Virus record (IMG/VR): IMGVR_UViG_3300027801_000207
Location: 1 to 20,496 of that record
Source of the DNA: a virus
Strand: one strand, 5' to 3'
DNA length: 20,496 nt
The position numbers and the translations under genes were made by a program. Shown in pieces: positions 2,600-9,154 of this stretch (within the stretch, counting starts at the first letter, position 1; each line of letters starts with the position of its first letter). A model generated the notes under the pieces. The model was not told the origin of the DNA. It did not search any database and saw only the letters and a list, made by a program, of their open reading frames with translations.

Positions 2600-3382
2600 A
2601 TGAAACGAAGATTGTTATACGAAATAACTATGAGAGCATATAGTTTTGATTGGGATGATAATATTCTTCATATGCCAACCATGATTCACATGGATAAAAT
2701 GGATGGGGATAAGTGGAATAAAGTAAAATTAACAACAGGGGAATACGCCAAACTTAAGGATTCTGAAGAGTATAGATATCCCGACAACGATATTAAGAAC
2801 GCTTTTGTTGAATTTAATGACGATAATGAATTTATAAAAAATGTAAAAGAAAGTTTAGATAATGAAGATTTTGCCCCTTCATTTAATGATTTTAAGGAAG
2901 CACTTATAAAAGCAAGGACATTATCAATTATCACAGCTAGGCCACAATCACCACAAACTCTCAAAGCAGGGGTTAGTATAATAATTGAGAACCATTTTAC
3001 TGATGAAGAAAGAGAAGAAATGGTTGAGAACATTATTAATAATTATGACTTTACAGGGACACAAGATGAGATAATTAAAAAGTATATAGAGTCAAATTAC
3101 TATTACCCTGTCTCATTCAAAAACAGATACGTCGATGTTAAAGCTTCAAAAGTTAATGCACTAGATGATTTTATTAAGAAAGTAATTACATCATTTGAGA
3201 AAATGGATAAGGACGAATACAATCAAATGAGTGTGGGATTTAGTGATGATGACACAGATAATGTGGAACACATGGTAAAAAAAGTAGAAGAGGAGATATC
3301 AAAAAGGTATCCAGAGGTTAAATTTTATATTTACGATACCTCAGAAAAGGGTAAAAATAAACTAATAGTACATTCAACATAG
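2600..3382 (+). CDS. HAD-superfamily phosphatase-like protein with capsid-targeting-like leader
   Basis: This 260-residue protein carries the HAD hydrolase signature. Motif I is FDWDDN, with D17 and D19 as nucleophile and acid/base. Motif II is SIITARP with T112. A Lys-containing segment (DVKASKVNALDDF) fits motif III, and motif IV is GFSDDDTDN at residues 213-221. HAD enzymes of this type remove phosphate from small molecules or polynucleotide ends; the substrate here cannot be read from the sequence. It starts one base after the sheath stop, so the two are probably co-transcribed. The N-terminus MKRRLLYE ends in L-x-E, the cleavage consensus of the T4 prohead protease gp21, and a second Met (M11, base 2630) follows just after it. 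This suggests the protein may be targeted into the prohead and trimmed (inference). If translation instead starts at M11, that idea fails. An enzyme gene between sheath and tube is unlike T4. Confidence 0.8.
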   Translation: MKRRLLYEITMRAYSFDWDDNILHMPTMIHMDKMDGDKWNKVKLTTGEYAKLKDSEEYRYPDNDIKNAFVEFNDDNEFIKNVKESLDNEDFAPSFNDFKEALIKARTLSIITARPQSPQTLKAGVSIIIENHFTDEEREEMVENIINNYDFTGTQDEIIKKYIESNYYYPVSFKNRYVDVKASKVNALDDFIKKVITSFEKMDKDEYNQMSVGFSDDDTDNVEHMVKKVEEEISKRYPEVKFYIYDTSEKGKNKLIVHST

Positions 3383-3450: not shown

Positions 3451-3939
3451 ATGGCAGACTTATTAATGAAAATGCCGGTTCCTTACGAACCAAAAAGAAA
3501 GAATCGGTTTATACTAAAATTTCCTTCAGACTTAGGAATCGCAGAATGGATAGTATCTAGTGCGGCTAGACCATCAATAACAATAAATGAGGTAGAGATC
3601 CCTTTTCTTAACACGAAAACTTTTGTAGCTGGACAATTCCAGTGGGAAACAATTGATGTGACTTTCAGAGACCCTATTGCGCCGTCTTCATCACAAGCTT
3701 TAATGGAGTGGGTAAGGTTACACGCTGAATCAGTAACAGGAAGAATGGGTTACGCAGCAGGATACAAGAAGAAAGTGGATTTATTCATGTTAGACCCAAC
3801 AGGTGCTATTGTAGAGAATTGGGAACTAAGAGGTACTTTCTTAACTAACGTTAACTTTGGTGACTTGGATTATAGTGGAGACGATTTAGCTGATGTTTCA
3901 GCAACATTAAGATTTGATAGAGCAATCTTAAAATACTAA
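3451..3939 (+). CDS. Tail tube protein, gp19-like
   Basis: This is the major tail tube subunit, which stacks as hexamers to form the inner tail channel through which DNA passes. At 162 residues it is almost the same length as T4 gp19 (163). Family features visible are the N-terminal P..P..KNRFILKFP strand, the SSAARPSI segment, the ETIDVTFRDPI strand near residue 70, the ALMEWVRLH helix, the KKVDLFMLDPTG hairpin, and a C-terminal NFGDLDYSGDDLADVSATLRFD stretch before the end. The ATG follows an A-rich leader (runs of A separated by one C) with no Shine-Dalgarno match. The gene stands alone between a candidate promoter motif upstream and a hairpin downstream, which fits separate high-level expression of a subunit needed in many copies (inference). 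Confidence 0.93.
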   Translation: MADLLMKMPVPYEPKRKNRFILKFPSDLGIAEWIVSSAARPSITINEVEIPFLNTKTFVAGQFQWETIDVTFRDPIAPSSSQALMEWVRLHAESVTGRMGYAAGYKKKVDLFMLDPTGAIVENWELRGTFLTNVNFGDLDYSGDDLADVSATLRFDRAILKY

Positions 3940-4063: not shown

Positions 4064-4822
4064 ATGTCAGAAAAAGAAGTAAAATTTAGTGTACCCTTTG
4101 ATGTAATTGAATTACCATCTAAAGGATTACTATATAAAGAGTGTGGTGAAACTATTAAGGTGGAGTATATGACCGCAGAAGACGAGAACATACTAACGTC
4201 ACCAAACCTTTTACAATCTGGTAAAGTGCTAGATGTACTTTTGGAGCGTAAAATAAAACAAAAGGGAATCACAGCTAAGAATCTTTTAGTTGGAGATAGA
4301 AATGCTATTATGGTATTCTTAAGAGCAACCGCTTATGGTGAGATGTATCCGGTGAAATTAACCGATCCAACTACTGGAGAAGAGTTCGAGACAGAAATCG
4401 ACCTTAACGAATTAAAAGTTAAAGAGATAGGAGCTGACCCAGATGAGAATGGATATTTTTCATTTGAATTAAAACGTTCTAAGAAAACAATTAAATTTAG
4501 ATTACTAACGGCTAAAGATGAAGAAGATTTAATTCTCGGAGAAGAAAAAAGACAAAAGGTGTTAAAGAATGAGGTTTCCAAATTACTTACATCTAGACTA
4601 ACTACACAGATTATGGAGGTAGGTGGAGAAACTAATAAAGGTTATATTGAACAATTTGTACAATATATGCCAGCTGGAGATTCATTGGAGTTACGAAAGT
4701 ACATGGATGATATTGAACCAGGAATAGATCTGAGGGTAGACGTGGAGGCTCCTTCAGGTGCCGGGTTTCGCAGTCTCGTTCCCATCACAGTCCGATTTTT
4801 TTGGCCTAACGTCGAGTTATAA
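4064..4822 (+). CDS. T4 gp26-type baseplate hub / tail assembly protein
   Basis: This 252-residue protein resembles the T4 gp26 baseplate family (Pfam T4_baseplate). Features seen are VIELPSKGLLY near residues 13-23, then VEYMTAEDENILTSPNL, a long central helix with VLDVLLERKI and NAIMVFLRATAYGE, a paired strand LTDPTTGEEFETEIDL, and a FRLLTAKDEEDLI repeat of the TAEDE motif. The end, RFFWPNVEL, is typical of the family (from memory). T4 gp26 is 208 residues and takes part in hub assembly. The gene lies between tube and tape measure genes, the position of tail-assembly chaperones in other phages. Its last 65 bases overlap the next ORF in the +1 frame, and a run of seven T (4796-4802) in the codons for F245-F246 offers a possible frameshift site. 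The start is the ATG after an A-rich leader. Confidence 0.82.
   Translation: MSEKEVKFSVPFDVIELPSKGLLYKECGETIKVEYMTAEDENILTSPNLLQSGKVLDVLLERKIKQKGITAKNLLVGDRNAIMVFLRATAYGEMYPVKLTDPTTGEEFETEIDLNELKVKEIGADPDENGYFSFELKRSKKTIKFRLLTAKDEEDLILGEEKRQKVLKNEVSKLLTSRLTTQIMEVGGETNKGYIEQFVQYMPAGDSLELRKYMDDIEPGIDLRVDVEAPSGAGFRSLVPITVRFFWPNVEL
4744..4748 (+). promoter_or_regulatory. Possible Shine-Dalgarno GGAGG for the overlapping small gene
   Basis: GGAGG lies nine bases before the GTG at 4758, good spacing for a ribosome binding site. It is the only strong Shine-Dalgarno match before a start in this window; most others have A-rich leaders. It falls inside the gp26-like coding sequence, so the match may simply reflect Val-Glu-Ala codons. 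Confidence 0.4.
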
Positions 4823-4997
4823 ACCGTCGTTATTTCAAGAAATCTATATACTAGTACATCACGCTGGGTTTACGAGACAAGATGTAATGTCTATGCCAAT
4901 ATTTGAAAGGAGAGCATATATGACTTTCTTACAAAAAGAAGTAGATGAAAAAAACAAAGCACAAAAAGCAGCTAACGCTAAAGCGAAGAGGGGATAA
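4758..4997 (+). CDS. Small tail-assembly partner overlapping gp26-like gene (GTG start or frameshift product)
   Basis: This 79-residue ORF is in the +1 frame relative to the gp26-like gene and overlaps its last 65 bases. Its core reads FQEIYILVHHAGFTRQDV followed by MSMPIFERRAYMTFLQKE, then a charged Lys/Ala/Glu tail. Small proteins of this pattern follow gp26-like genes in other T4-related phages (from memory), where they are thought to help hub or tail assembly. Two readings are possible. It may start independently at GTG 4758, helped by GGAGG at 4744. Alternatively, a +1 or -2 slip on seven T (4796-4802) would join about 246 residues of the upstream protein to the last 64 residues here. 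No ATG is available before the conserved core. The stop codon TAA lies in the loop of the terminator hairpin. Confidence 0.75.
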   Translation: MPGFAVSFPSQSDFFGLTSSYKPSLFQEIYILVHHAGFTRQDVMSMPIFERRAYMTFLQKEVDEKNKAQKAANAKAKRG

Positions 4998-5040: not shown

Positions 5041-6636
5041 TTGGATAATAGAGCCCGACAATATAATAGAATGAAAGAATTAATGGGATTAAGTTCTCAT
5101 TCCTTAGCTGAACAAAACCAACCCAACATCAGTAAAAACCCTATAACAGCTACGGTAACGGGTGTTAGTATAGATAGTAATGCAGGGACAACAGGTGTTA
5201 ACCAAGGAGTTGAAGATTTTTCACAAGGATTTGTAGGCGCTGATACGGCATTAGACGCAGTTAGACAAGGTATAGGAGTTACCCCTATAAGTCAAGGTAT
5301 TGTAAATGAAATTGTTCTAGATTACCATTATAAGACAGGACCATTTACTCTTAAGTATTCATTTTCTAACGACATAAAAATTCCTGGAGGTGTAATCCCT
5401 AAAAACACATCATTTACCACTAAAAACGCAAATTATATAGGTTTAACAAAGGAAGGACAAACCATTTCCGTTGAAACACCAACCCCAGTAGAAAGTAGTG
5501 ATTCAAATGATACAGGAAATAGAAACAAAAAAATAGTAGATTTATTTAAGTCAGTGGGGATAACGATTAGTCTCAGTAGTACCTTCGTTACCTACTTCAG
5601 AAAAAATATAAGACCAATTCTAAGAAGAATAAAAAAAGAATTACCAGAATACAGACTCCAATTTATTGATCAACCAACAACAGAACTAGTAACTGATAGT
5701 TTCATTAGAATTAAAGATATTTTATTAGAGAGTTATAATGAAAATTTGAAACAATTAAAAGATCTTATAGCCGCTAAGGATGGGCAGAAGAAAGATAAAA
5801 AAATGACCGGAATATTGGAAAAAGAGATAGAAAAAGAAAAGAAGAAACTTCTAACAATTGTAAAACCAAAATTCAAAAAAATATTTAAGGACAACATTAG
5901 AGAATTAACAGACAATGATATAGTATCATTAATTTCATCATTTGAGGTTTTTTTACAAGGACTAAAAGAAGATTATCCCCAGTATAAGATTAATTTTAAT
6001 GAAAACCAATTAAAAGAGGAAGAGGATGTGGAGACTAAAACCCCTAAAGATATGTTAATTCATCTTGATGATAAACAAGATATTATTTTTATAAGTAGAA
6101 AATATCCATGTACAGTCTCAATAGATGGTAAACAAACAGGACAAAATACTATAAACATCATGGATGTAACTTCACGATATGTTTATAAAGGAGGAGCAAA
6201 ACAAAAAACTACACAGGGAGGGGCGTCAGGAAATACCAAAACAGAAGAAGAGTTCTATACTCTACCAATATATAATCAATTACAGAATGATAAGGGAAAA
6301 CTGTTCGATGTCAGTATGTCAGTAGATATTGACCCCCAGGTGTACTTAGCACAGCACAATGAACATGCTAGTCTTCTACGTAAACATGAGGGAGACTTAT
6401 GGAAATATAAGATTAAAATGATGGATAATGGGTTTGAGTTGGTTGATATAAAAACCTCACAAGGAGAGACAATAAGATTACCCGCAGAGGCCCAGTTGAG
6501 AATGTTATTCCCAAGAGAAACAGAAAAGATAGAGTTTGGGAAACAATACCGAGTAACAGTTTTACAAAATAATGATAATATAGGTAAATTATACATAACA
6601 GTAGATGATGTTAAAAAACAAACATCAGGTTTTTAA
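5041..6636 (+). CDS. Tail-module protein of unknown function
   Basis: I do not recognise this 531-residue protein. The N-terminal 100 residues are Gly/Thr/Asn-rich and end in a possible beta region (EIVLDYHYKTGPFTLKYSF). Residues about 160-310 are Lys/Glu-rich and mostly helical, with a charged coiled-coil-like stretch (EKEIEKEKKKLL). A Gly/Lys/Thr-rich linker (about 388-402) precedes a C-terminal part with VSMSVDIDPQVYL and an ending rich in short strands. There is no signal peptide or membrane segment. It lies between the chaperone-like pair and the tape measure, so a tail or virion assembly role is likely. The start is uncertain: TTG 5041 gives the full frame with only a weak A-rich leader, while ATG 5071 would begin MKELMGL. 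With the latter, SLAE near the N-terminus would fit an L-x-E prohead-protease site, a weak hint of a cleaved leader. Confidence 0.8.
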   Translation: MDNRARQYNRMKELMGLSSHSLAEQNQPNISKNPITATVTGVSIDSNAGTTGVNQGVEDFSQGFVGADTALDAVRQGIGVTPISQGIVNEIVLDYHYKTGPFTLKYSFSNDIKIPGGVIPKNTSFTTKNANYIGLTKEGQTISVETPTPVESSDSNDTGNRNKKIVDLFKSVGITISLSSTFVTYFRKNIRPILRRIKKELPEYRLQFIDQPTTELVTDSFIRIKDILLESYNENLKQLKDLIAAKDGQKKDKKMTGILEKEIEKEKKKLLTIVKPKFKKIFKDNIRELTDNDIVSLISSFEVFLQGLKEDYPQYKINFNENQLKEEEDVETKTPKDMLIHLDDKQDIIFISRKYPCTVSIDGKQTGQNTINIMDVTSRYVYKGGAKQKTTQGGASGNTKTEEEFYTLPIYNQLQNDKGKLFDVSMSVDIDPQVYLAQHNEHASLLRKHEGDLWKYKIKMMDNGFELVDIKTSQGETIRLPAEAQLRMLFPRETEKIEFGKQYRVTVLQNNDNIGKLYITVDDVKKQTSGF

Positions 6637-6643
6637 TTAATAT

Positions 6644-9154
6644 ATGGCAGAAGACGCAAATAAAAGGATAGCAGAACTACAACAACAAAGAGAGTTGATG
6701 CAGTGGATGATTGACAATCAAAAGAGGGTCAATAATGGAGTTAGTGCACACCTAAAGGCCAAAAAAGAACTTTACGAATACACTGAAATGATGCAAGTTG
6801 CTTCAAAAGATTTGCTAGAAACAGGAGAATTAATACTAGAACTTGAGACGGGAAGAATAAAGTTGAGTGAAGAAGAGGAATTAAATTTAAGGCAATTAAA
6901 TAAAGACCTTAAAAAGAAACGAGATACCATAGAAAAAGAGATTAATGCGCTTAAAAAAACACTTAGTCTAAGGAAGGCTTTAGTTAAGGAAGTTGAAAAA
7001 GGGGTTAAAGCATTATACAATGAGTTATTTACTGTAAGAAAGTTAACTAACTTATATCTAGAACTGGATAAATCTATTAGGACTATTAGTGTTAGTATGG
7101 GATTAACCGGTGGATCTTCAGAAATGTTTAGAGAAAATATGCTTAATACGGCGATGTATGCCGCTAGGTTTAATGTAAGTTTAGCCGAAGTCGCAAAACT
7201 ACAGGGAGACATGGCTCGTGGAACAGGTACGGCGGCTATTTTAACTGAAGAGGAGATGAAAAGGTTTAGTGTTATATCTAAACTATTCCCACAGATAGGT
7301 GACATGGGGGCACAATTAGAATTATATGGAATTGGTGCAGGTCAATCAGCAAAAGAGTTTGAAAAAATATTTCACACCGCGCAAGAATATGGATTAGACG
7401 CGGACATGTATTCCAAAAGCATGCTCAAGAATTTCAAAATGATAACCAAATATAGGTTTAGGGGTGGGATAGCTGATTTAAGGGAAGCAACCGCACTAAC
7501 TCAAAGAATGCGTCAGGACATGGAATCCTTCACAGGTTTTGCTGAAAAGGTTATGAGACCCGAAGGAGCAATAGAAGCGGCGGCTTCTTTACAAGTATTA
7601 GGGGGTGAAATGGCCAAGTTAGGGGACCCATTCAAGTTGATGTATTTAGCAAGGAATGATATGGCTGGGTTTACTGAGGAAGTGATGAACGCAACCAAGT
7701 TTACTGGAATCTTTAACAAAAAGACAGGAACATTTGACTTAACAGCAAATGAATTGGATCGTTTAAGAGAATTGGCTAAAATAACAGGACTACAATTTGA
7801 GGATTTAGCGACACAAGCTAGGGAACAAACAGCGGACGCAAGAATAAAGGCTGAAATAACCGCCTTCATCCCACAAAAGGATAAGGATTATTTGAGTGGA
7901 CTAACTAAGTTCGATGATGAAGGAGGAATGTTTATCGAAGTTAGAGGAGCACCAAAAGATCTATCAAAAGTTGACGAAACAGATGTTAAATGGCTAAAAC
8001 AGAATGAAGTAACAATGGCAGAGATGGTAAAAATGCAAATGACATTTAAGGATAATTTAGATGCGATGGCCAAGATGTTACAACTAACCCTATTACCAGT
8101 ATTGAATTATCTAGGTGAACAGGCAAAATACTGGACAGAGAAAATGGCAGATTGGTCAGATAGTACCAAAACATGGGTAACAATTGGTATTTTAGGATTA
8201 ACCGCGGCTTTTGGAATTGCTACTATGTTTGCTGCAGGGGTATCAATGGGACTTGGATTCAGGATGTCTTCTGGAGCCACAGGGTTAAAAAGTACTATGA
8301 TGGGTGGAGCGTCCGGGTCACAATTATCAGGTATGGGCTCTGGAGCAAGAAAAAGACTAATGGGTACTGCCGCGGTTATTGCATCAATTGGAGTTGCATT
8401 GGCCGGAGTAGGACTTGGGGTATGGTTTGTTACTAAAGGTTTTGCCGCGTTGGCTAACGCAATAAAAGATTTGGACACGGAAAAACTAAAATTCATGCAA
8501 AGTGCGATGTTGGGAATTGGGATTGCTTTTGGTGTGTTAATTGCTATTATGACAGGTTTAGCTGTTAGTGGGGTTGGTACAGTAGCGGCGGCAATAATGT
8601 TAGCATTTGGGGCCGCTTTATTGATGGTTGGTGGTGCGGTTGCTATAGCATCCCTAGGTATAAGTAAGATTATATCAGCGTTGGGAACCTTAGGTGGTAT
8701 AGACCTAACGAACTTACCTACTTTTTCACAATTAGCTTCATTTGCTGCTGGTTTAACTACACTTAGTTTGGCGTCTATAGTTGGATTACCGGGGTTGTGG
8801 ATACTGGAGGAGATGGCATCATATGGTCCTGGGTTAGAAATGGCTGGTAAAGGAGTTAAAAACTTGTCCACTAACATATGGGGACTTAGTGAAGCTTTAA
8901 GGTCGGTAACAGTTGATGGAGGAAAGTTTCAGGAATTAGAAAGTGTAATAGGTAGTCTAAGTAGTTTAATGCTCCAAACACAATCAACACCCATAAGAGT
9001 AGAAGTGGGTGGAAGTGTAGATGGTTCGGTAAATGTGGCGATTGAAGGTAGCGACTTCAAAAAAGATTTACTGAGAGATTCCTATTTTTTAGAGGAATTA
9101 ACAAGTAAAATAGAACAACGTGTAACACTTAGAGACAATACTAGTGGGTTATAG
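6644..9154 (+). CDS. Tail tape measure protein
   Basis: This 836-residue protein has the composition of a tape measure, which spans the tube lumen and fixes tail length. Residues 1 to about 150 are highly charged helix and coiled coil. The middle (about 150-490) is helical, with Met/Ala/Gly-rich stretches such as GIGAGQSAKEFEKIFHTAQE. Hydrophobic Gly/Ala-rich segments follow at roughly 509-535, 571-596, 619-680 and 690-724, the kind that can insert in the host membrane on DNA entry. The C-terminal 100 residues are more polar. The position after the tube and gp26-like genes and before the baseplate genes matches gene order in contractile-tailed phages. At about 0.15 nm per residue, a rule of thumb, the tail would be near 125 nm. 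It starts seven bases after the previous stop and ends with TAG. Confidence 0.85.
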   Translation: MAEDANKRIAELQQQRELMQWMIDNQKRVNNGVSAHLKAKKELYEYTEMMQVASKDLLETGELILELETGRIKLSEEEELNLRQLNKDLKKKRDTIEKEINALKKTLSLRKALVKEVEKGVKALYNELFTVRKLTNLYLELDKSIRTISVSMGLTGGSSEMFRENMLNTAMYAARFNVSLAEVAKLQGDMARGTGTAAILTEEEMKRFSVISKLFPQIGDMGAQLELYGIGAGQSAKEFEKIFHTAQEYGLDADMYSKSMLKNFKMITKYRFRGGIADLREATALTQRMRQDMESFTGFAEKVMRPEGAIEAAASLQVLGGEMAKLGDPFKLMYLARNDMAGFTEEVMNATKFTGIFNKKTGTFDLTANELDRLRELAKITGLQFEDLATQAREQTADARIKAEITAFIPQKDKDYLSGLTKFDDEGGMFIEVRGAPKDLSKVDETDVKWLKQNEVTMAEMVKMQMTFKDNLDAMAKMLQLTLLPVLNYLGEQAKYWTEKMADWSDSTKTWVTIGILGLTAAFGIATMFAAGVSMGLGFRMSSGATGLKSTMMGGASGSQLSGMGSGARKRLMGTAAVIASIGVALAGVGLGVWFVTKGFAALANAIKDLDTEKLKFMQSAMLGIGIAFGVLIAIMTGLAVSGVGTVAAAIMLAFGAALLMVGGAVAIASLGISKIISALGTLGGIDLTNLPTFSQLASFAAGLTTLSLASIVGLPGLWILEEMASYGPGLEMAGKGVKNLSTNIWGLSEALRSVTVDGGKFQELESVIGSLSSLMLQTQSTPIRVEVGGSVDGSVNVAIEGSDFKKDLLRDSYFLEELTSKIEQRVTLRDNTSGL

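Follow-up and report, generated by a model that had tools for sequence, protein, structure and literature searches.

The window analyzed here is a 20,496-base virus fragment from IMG/VR, read on one strand from 5′ to 3′. Directly downstream of a tube gene (3451-3939; phrog_4542 match) lies an ORF whose product resembles T4 gp26, and this ORF is overlapped at its 3′ end by a small ORF in the +1 frame. The features of the locus are as follows.

4064..4822, + strand: short form, a gp26-like predicted tail assembly chaperone (TAC-N), 252 aa; stop codon TAA at 4820-4822; PF12322 8e-14, phrog_150 4e-16
4740..4997, + strand: small ORF, stop to stop, in the +1 frame relative to the gp26-like ORF; from ORF reading and alignment
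4796..4802, + strand: putative shift site, a run of seven T residues (T7) read CGA TTT TTT TGG in frame 0 and TTT TTT GGC in the +1 frame; conserved, 43 distinct junctions
4803..4997, + strand: putative C-terminal domain (gp51-type, phrog_634/DUF6760) read after the shift, GLTSSYK...AKRG; phrog_634 5e-7, aligned in relatives
4064..4997, + strand: predicted long form (TAC-NC), 310 aa, by +1 shift, join(4064..4801,4803..4997); phrog_150, AlphaFold
4744..4760, + strand: GGAGG (4744-4748) and GTG (4758-4760), a candidate independent start, lacking conservation beyond the clade of the window
4728..4781, + strand: GC-rich stretch with low synonymous change in the clade of the window, from a synonymous-difference comparison; possible upstream stimulator

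The first usable start codon of the small ORF is the GTG at 4758, which lies 9 nt beyond the GGAGG, and no ATG occurs ahead of the conserved core. An ORF beginning at this GTG overlaps the gp26-like ORF by 65 nt. In frame 0 the T7 run is phased as TTT TTT T(GG), and in the +1 frame as TTT TTT. These coordinates agree with the initial annotation, which had described a +1 ORF with a 65-base overlap and no ATG before its core, as well as seven T residues (4796-4802) covering two Phe codons in both frames, and its estimate of a joined protein of about 310 residues matches the 310 aa of the +1 product. The placement of the pair between tube and tape measure genes holds in part: the tube gene is directly upstream, but a 521-aa ORF (5071-6636) intervenes before the presumed tape measure gene (6644-9154), which is identified by size and position alone. 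The corresponding gene order in phage immuto is tube-type protein, hub, small ORF, and tape measure. Profile searches yielded no convincing family match for the 521-aa protein or for a 260-aa protein encoded at 2600-3382; the latter contains an FDWDDNIL motif and appears HAD-like by eye.

In this AT-rich window, T7 runs occur at the level expected by chance (19 observed versus 18.4 expected), and TTTTTTTGG is present twice (0.9 expected). A chance T run was rejected as the whole explanation of the site: the run by itself is at chance level, yet its position, phase, and frame are conserved in 42 of 43 junctions. Because the T run alone is unremarkable, the significance of the site derives from its conservation across relatives.

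Relationship to T4 gp26 and gp51

The gp26-like protein scores 52 bits against PF12322 (T4_baseplate), above the cut-off of 24.5, in addition to its match to phrog_150, and the phrog_634 family matched by the small ORF is that of T4 gp51. The small ORF also has a weak DUF6760 match that falls under the cut-off in the window and exceeds it in one relative (L046). When the two ORFs are joined, the 310-aa product matches phrog_150 over residues 8-294 with 72 bits, compared with 60 bits for the short form alone. An AlphaFold model of the joined product has a pLDDT of 95.1 and a pTM of 0.89, although its alignment consisted of separate N and C rows and it thus demonstrates a plausible fold rather than production of the fusion. 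A fold search with this model led to T4-like baseplate hub proteins, and searches of solved structures by sequence and by fold found no relative. The lone match in a scan of genome contigs with the gp26-like protein (L269) was discarded as false, as it is an unrelated carboxypeptidase-regulatory-like protein; profile alignment A1 proved too divergent for use in a scan of this kind.

PF12322 is strongly matched by T4 gp26 (208 aa) and by T4 gp51 (249 aa), and of the two only gp51 has the phrog_634 part. By these profile matches, T4 gp51 is a gp26-type domain combined with the domain that the small ORF of the window encodes, and gp26 and gp51 are paralogues. It follows from this domain composition that T4 has two genes where phages of the window type would use one gene and a frameshift. 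This also bears out the earlier remark that T4 gp26 is not itself frameshifted, as T4 encodes a short form, gp26, and a long form, gp51, in separate paralogous genes. From this homology we infer a chaperone function for the gp26-like protein and the long form, including binding to the tape measure protein and absence from virions.

Natural in-frame fusions of the gp26-like and DUF6760 parts are found in two Bacteroidota genomes (L272 859-1623 and L273 859-1623), where they retain the FF at the join and reside beside tube-like and sheath-like genes. A different arrangement is seen in a Bacteroidota genome (L271, reverse strand, about 1115-1665). A DUF6760 ORF there lies −1 to a short gp26-like ORF, which it overlaps at TCG GGG GAA, and its domain is preceded by no ATG, GTG, or TTG; tail sheath-like and tube-like genes adjoin the pair. 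This pair may represent a contractile injection system chaperone made by frameshifting. It comes from a single genome, in which a sequence error is possible.

Conservation of the putative shift site and frame relation

Using both proteins, we fetched 65 IMG/VR loci, 64 of which carry both parts, and these include 43 distinct junctions with that of the window counted. The small ORF is in the +1 frame in 42 of the 43, the sole exception (L019) being in −1; the junctions share ancestry, and their counts are not phylogenetically independent. The shift-site sequence is TTT TTT TGG in 39 junctions, TTT CTT TGG in three, and TTT TTT CGT in one, and TTC never occurs as the second codon (0/43). Broken T runs of this kind include TTT CTT TGG in L035, L050, L053, and immuto, and TTT CTA TTC in LR756508. 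Codon-phase counts on either side of the T run were uninformative, with too few changes on the upstream side. In 11 of the 43 junctions, the stretch from the upstream stop codon of the small ORF to the stop codon of the gp26-like ORF contains no ATG, GTG, or TTG. The same is true for the conserved domain in the isolate RM378, a Rhodothermus phage, in which only ACG AAT CCT spans the distance from TGA to TTT TTT GGA. The +1 relation also occurs in the isolates immuto (a Flavobacterium phage), Mel-JY01 (a Microcystis phage), SP-15, LIS04, and GXN1, and a weaker version of the site with a possible ATG is present in SP-15, LIS04, GXN1, and LR756508. In the annotated records we examined, the C-terminal part is absent, shortened, or entered as a separate hypothetical protein. 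The gp26-like ORFs of one clade (L031-L049) encode approximately 420 aa, of which some 180 form an N-terminal extension.

A second arrangement is observed in syn9, P-SSM2, phiM12, phiW-14, and HTVC008M, where a gp51-domain ORF lies −1 to the single gp26 gene and overlaps it at either T TTT TTT or T TTT TTC. Among 99 distinct junctions of this cyanophage type, all have the −1 relation with T TTT TTY, and 92 lack a start codon ahead of the gp26 stop. A Shine-Dalgarno-like motif ends 9-11 nt 5′ of the shift codons in every cyanophage-type junction checked (56/56). The window does not contain the heptamer T TTT TTC/TTT of this −1 version, and instead reads A TTT TTT TGG with the +1 relation. In the Salmonella phage Vi01 (L095, near 2290-2307), a gp51-type ORF, unannotated as a C part, lies in −1 relative to gp26 at a site lacking a standard slippery heptamer.

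For −1 shifting, two tRNAs must re-pair and a T is needed ahead of the two Phe codons, whereas in +1 shifting a single tRNA moves to the next base. The junctions agree with this expectation, in that the base ahead of the Phe pair and the choice of codons appear to track the frame. The Phe pair is preceded by T in 100/100 of the −1 junctions and in 0/42 of the +1 junctions, and TTC is the second codon in 91/99 cyanophage-type versus 0/43 window-type junctions. Two window-type members have the preceding T, and in both the small ORF is in −1: L019 and LR756511, the latter fetched separately, outside the tally, and reading T TTT TTC. A possible hairpin (GGATCTTTAAAAGAGATCC) lies immediately after the shift site in L019 (4690-4750), the only window-type locus of the tally in −1. 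In a tree of these proteins, the +1 and −1 clades are deep and separate, L019 is nested inside the +1 clade, and the T4 two-gene proteins group on the −1 side with a support of 91; the tree is from a quick search and has long branches (RM378, A31 gp26), making its fine structure uncertain.

A probable programmed frameshift and the alternatives to it

Taken together, the gp26-like ORF and the small ORF very probably constitute one tail-assembly-chaperone gene that yields two proteins via a frameshift. The initial annotation had proposed a programmed frameshift joining the pair, and this is supported by the conserved site and frame, by the relatives that lack a start codon, and by the end-to-end match of the joined product to phrog_150. 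Most ribosomes would complete the 252-aa short form. A fraction would reach CGA TTT TTT where, with the A site occupied by the UGG codon, the P-site tRNA-Phe would slip forward by one base, from UUU to UUU, and reading would then continue at GGC to give the 310-aa long form with its gp51-type C-terminal domain. The sequences themselves show a conserved joined frame, missing start codons in many relatives, and homology to T4 gp26 and gp51; we infer the slip, its +1 direction, and its efficiency.

A direction of +1 is preferred, though not proven, over −2 at the T7 site. A programmed −2 frameshift at the same run, which is used by phage Mu (PMC5009743), would generate a 311-aa protein containing RFFFGLT, since seven T residues would let tRNA-Phe re-pair two bases back. 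The broken runs of relatives, such as TTTCTTT and TTTCTATTC, would re-pair poorly at −2, yet they permit a clean +1 slip from UUU to UUC, and we consider the −2 reading unlikely. Slippage by RNA polymerase on the homopolymer, producing a mixed mRNA on which ribosomes need not shift, appears highly improbable: the frame relation is retained in relatives whose run is broken or shortened, and such a process would not need the observed dependence on codon phase and on the base before the two Phe codons. Seven T residues are, moreover, a short run for efficient polymerase slippage. A sequencing or assembly error might be suspected for a lone homopolymer in a metagenomic contig, but over 40 distinct junctions share the arrangement, as do the isolates immuto, Mel-JY01, SP-15, LIS04, GXN1, and RM378, leaving this explanation with a negligible probability.

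The small ORF could alternatively be a separate gene, translationally coupled to the gp26-like gene and started at GTG 4758 from the GGAGG at 4744-4748. Within the window's own clade, the GTG is kept in 12/12 members and the GGAGG in 5/12, and the GTG region overlaps a zone of synonymous constraint. This zone corresponds to the stretch at 4728-4781 (alignment A2, columns 1-54), which is 61% GC compared with 34% in the remainder of the gene. In this clade, codons −25 to −5 have a synonymous difference of 0.00-0.23, compared with 0.44 elsewhere in the gene, and the constrained stretch occupies a region approximately 15-75 nt 5′ of the shift site. The constraint begins 5′ of the GTG and vanishes over the last five codons ahead of the T run, unlike that of a selected overlapping frame, a pattern more in keeping with a possible 5′ stimulator of the shift than with the start of an overlapping gene. 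Separate initiation is further contradicted by the absence of ATG, GTG, and TTG in 11/43 relatives, in RM378, and in 92/99 junctions of the −1 clade, and a start located further down would deprive the small domain of its FF..LT beginning. A comparison of homologous pairs had been suggested at the outset, and across relatives the T run and frame relation are indeed kept while the GTG and GGAGG are not. We judge a separate gene to be very unlikely, although the GTG could add a minor product in the window's clade.

For the frameshift favored here, no classical stimulator is apparent. No Shine-Dalgarno motif was seen close to the window's shift site, RNA structure downstream of the site is not notable (z −0.77), and RNAalifold analysis of an upstream hairpin yielded neither compensatory pairs nor stability exceeding that of shuffled sequences.

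Comparison with known systems and implications

The lambda-type G/GT frameshift is a textbook example, with a −1 shift at GGGAAAG. Like lambda gpG/gpGT (Xu, Hendrix and Duda, 2004; PMC5009743), the window pair would comprise a short chaperone and a frameshift-extended long one encoded beside tube and tape measure genes, a likeness of organization rather than of demonstrated sequence homology. On the lambda model, the tape-measure protein would be coated by numerous short-form and few long-form copies, and the additional C-terminal domain would recruit tube subunits during tail assembly. A 2016 review describes the G/GT frameshift as conserved in long-tailed phages except T4, with −1, −2, and +1 shifts all occurring (PMC5009743). 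Another likeness is to bacterial prfB (CUU UGA), in which a P-site tRNA slips +1 onto an overlapping codon with U next, and three window relatives have CTT TGG; the gene is unrelated, however, and the window has neither an A-site stop codon nor a Shine-Dalgarno sequence three bases upstream.

Also close to the present case are the T4-like chaperone genes of Vladimirov, Gautam and Davidson (Virology, 2022), who, as cited in PMC10885494 and PMC12846349, identified these genes together with their two-gene form and −1 signals of the poly-T type. As far as that work is represented there, its chaperones share with the window homologous short and long forms, a gp51-type C domain, and a Phe-Phe shift close to the short form's end, whereas the window site is +1 (or −2), has no T before the Phe pair, has mostly UGG in the A site, and has no close Shine-Dalgarno motif. 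The literature searched, which did not include the full text of the 2022 paper, contained no report of a +1 site, or of a one-base +1/−1 relation, in the T4-like chaperone family. The chaperone family and its frameshift switch are already known; within that scope, the conserved +1 site and one-base +1/−1 switch appear to be new.

A broader proposal, which we offer tentatively and would rate at somewhat below even, has three parts. A deep clade of T4-related phages would use a previously undescribed +1 chaperone site, UUU-UUU-UGG, lacking a preceding T, an A-site stop, and a close Shine-Dalgarno sequence; the −1 and +1 forms would be distinguished by a single T ahead of the Phe codon pair, with L019 and LR756511 as natural switches; and the GC-rich stretch would serve as an upstream stimulator in the window's clade.

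Cyanophage gp51 has been described as approximately 20% of the length of T4 gp51, with the first ~200 residues missing (Sullivan, 2010; PMC3037559). Its C-terminal domain is identical in type to that of the window, and while it is annotated as a separate short gene, we read it as extending gp26 through a −1 shift at T TTT TTC/TTT, which would account for its truncated appearance. Annotations of these T4-like phages mostly miss the predicted frameshift, and in many of them the cyanophage ‘gp51’ and DUF6760 ORFs beside gp26 are most likely frameshift extensions rather than genes. DUF6760 thereby gains a probable role as a chaperone C domain, and the two clades allow +1 and −1 shifting to be compared in nature on one codon pair. 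The frameshift reading would also fit a simple history for the exception represented by T4, in which duplication into gp26 and gp51 replaced the frameshift.
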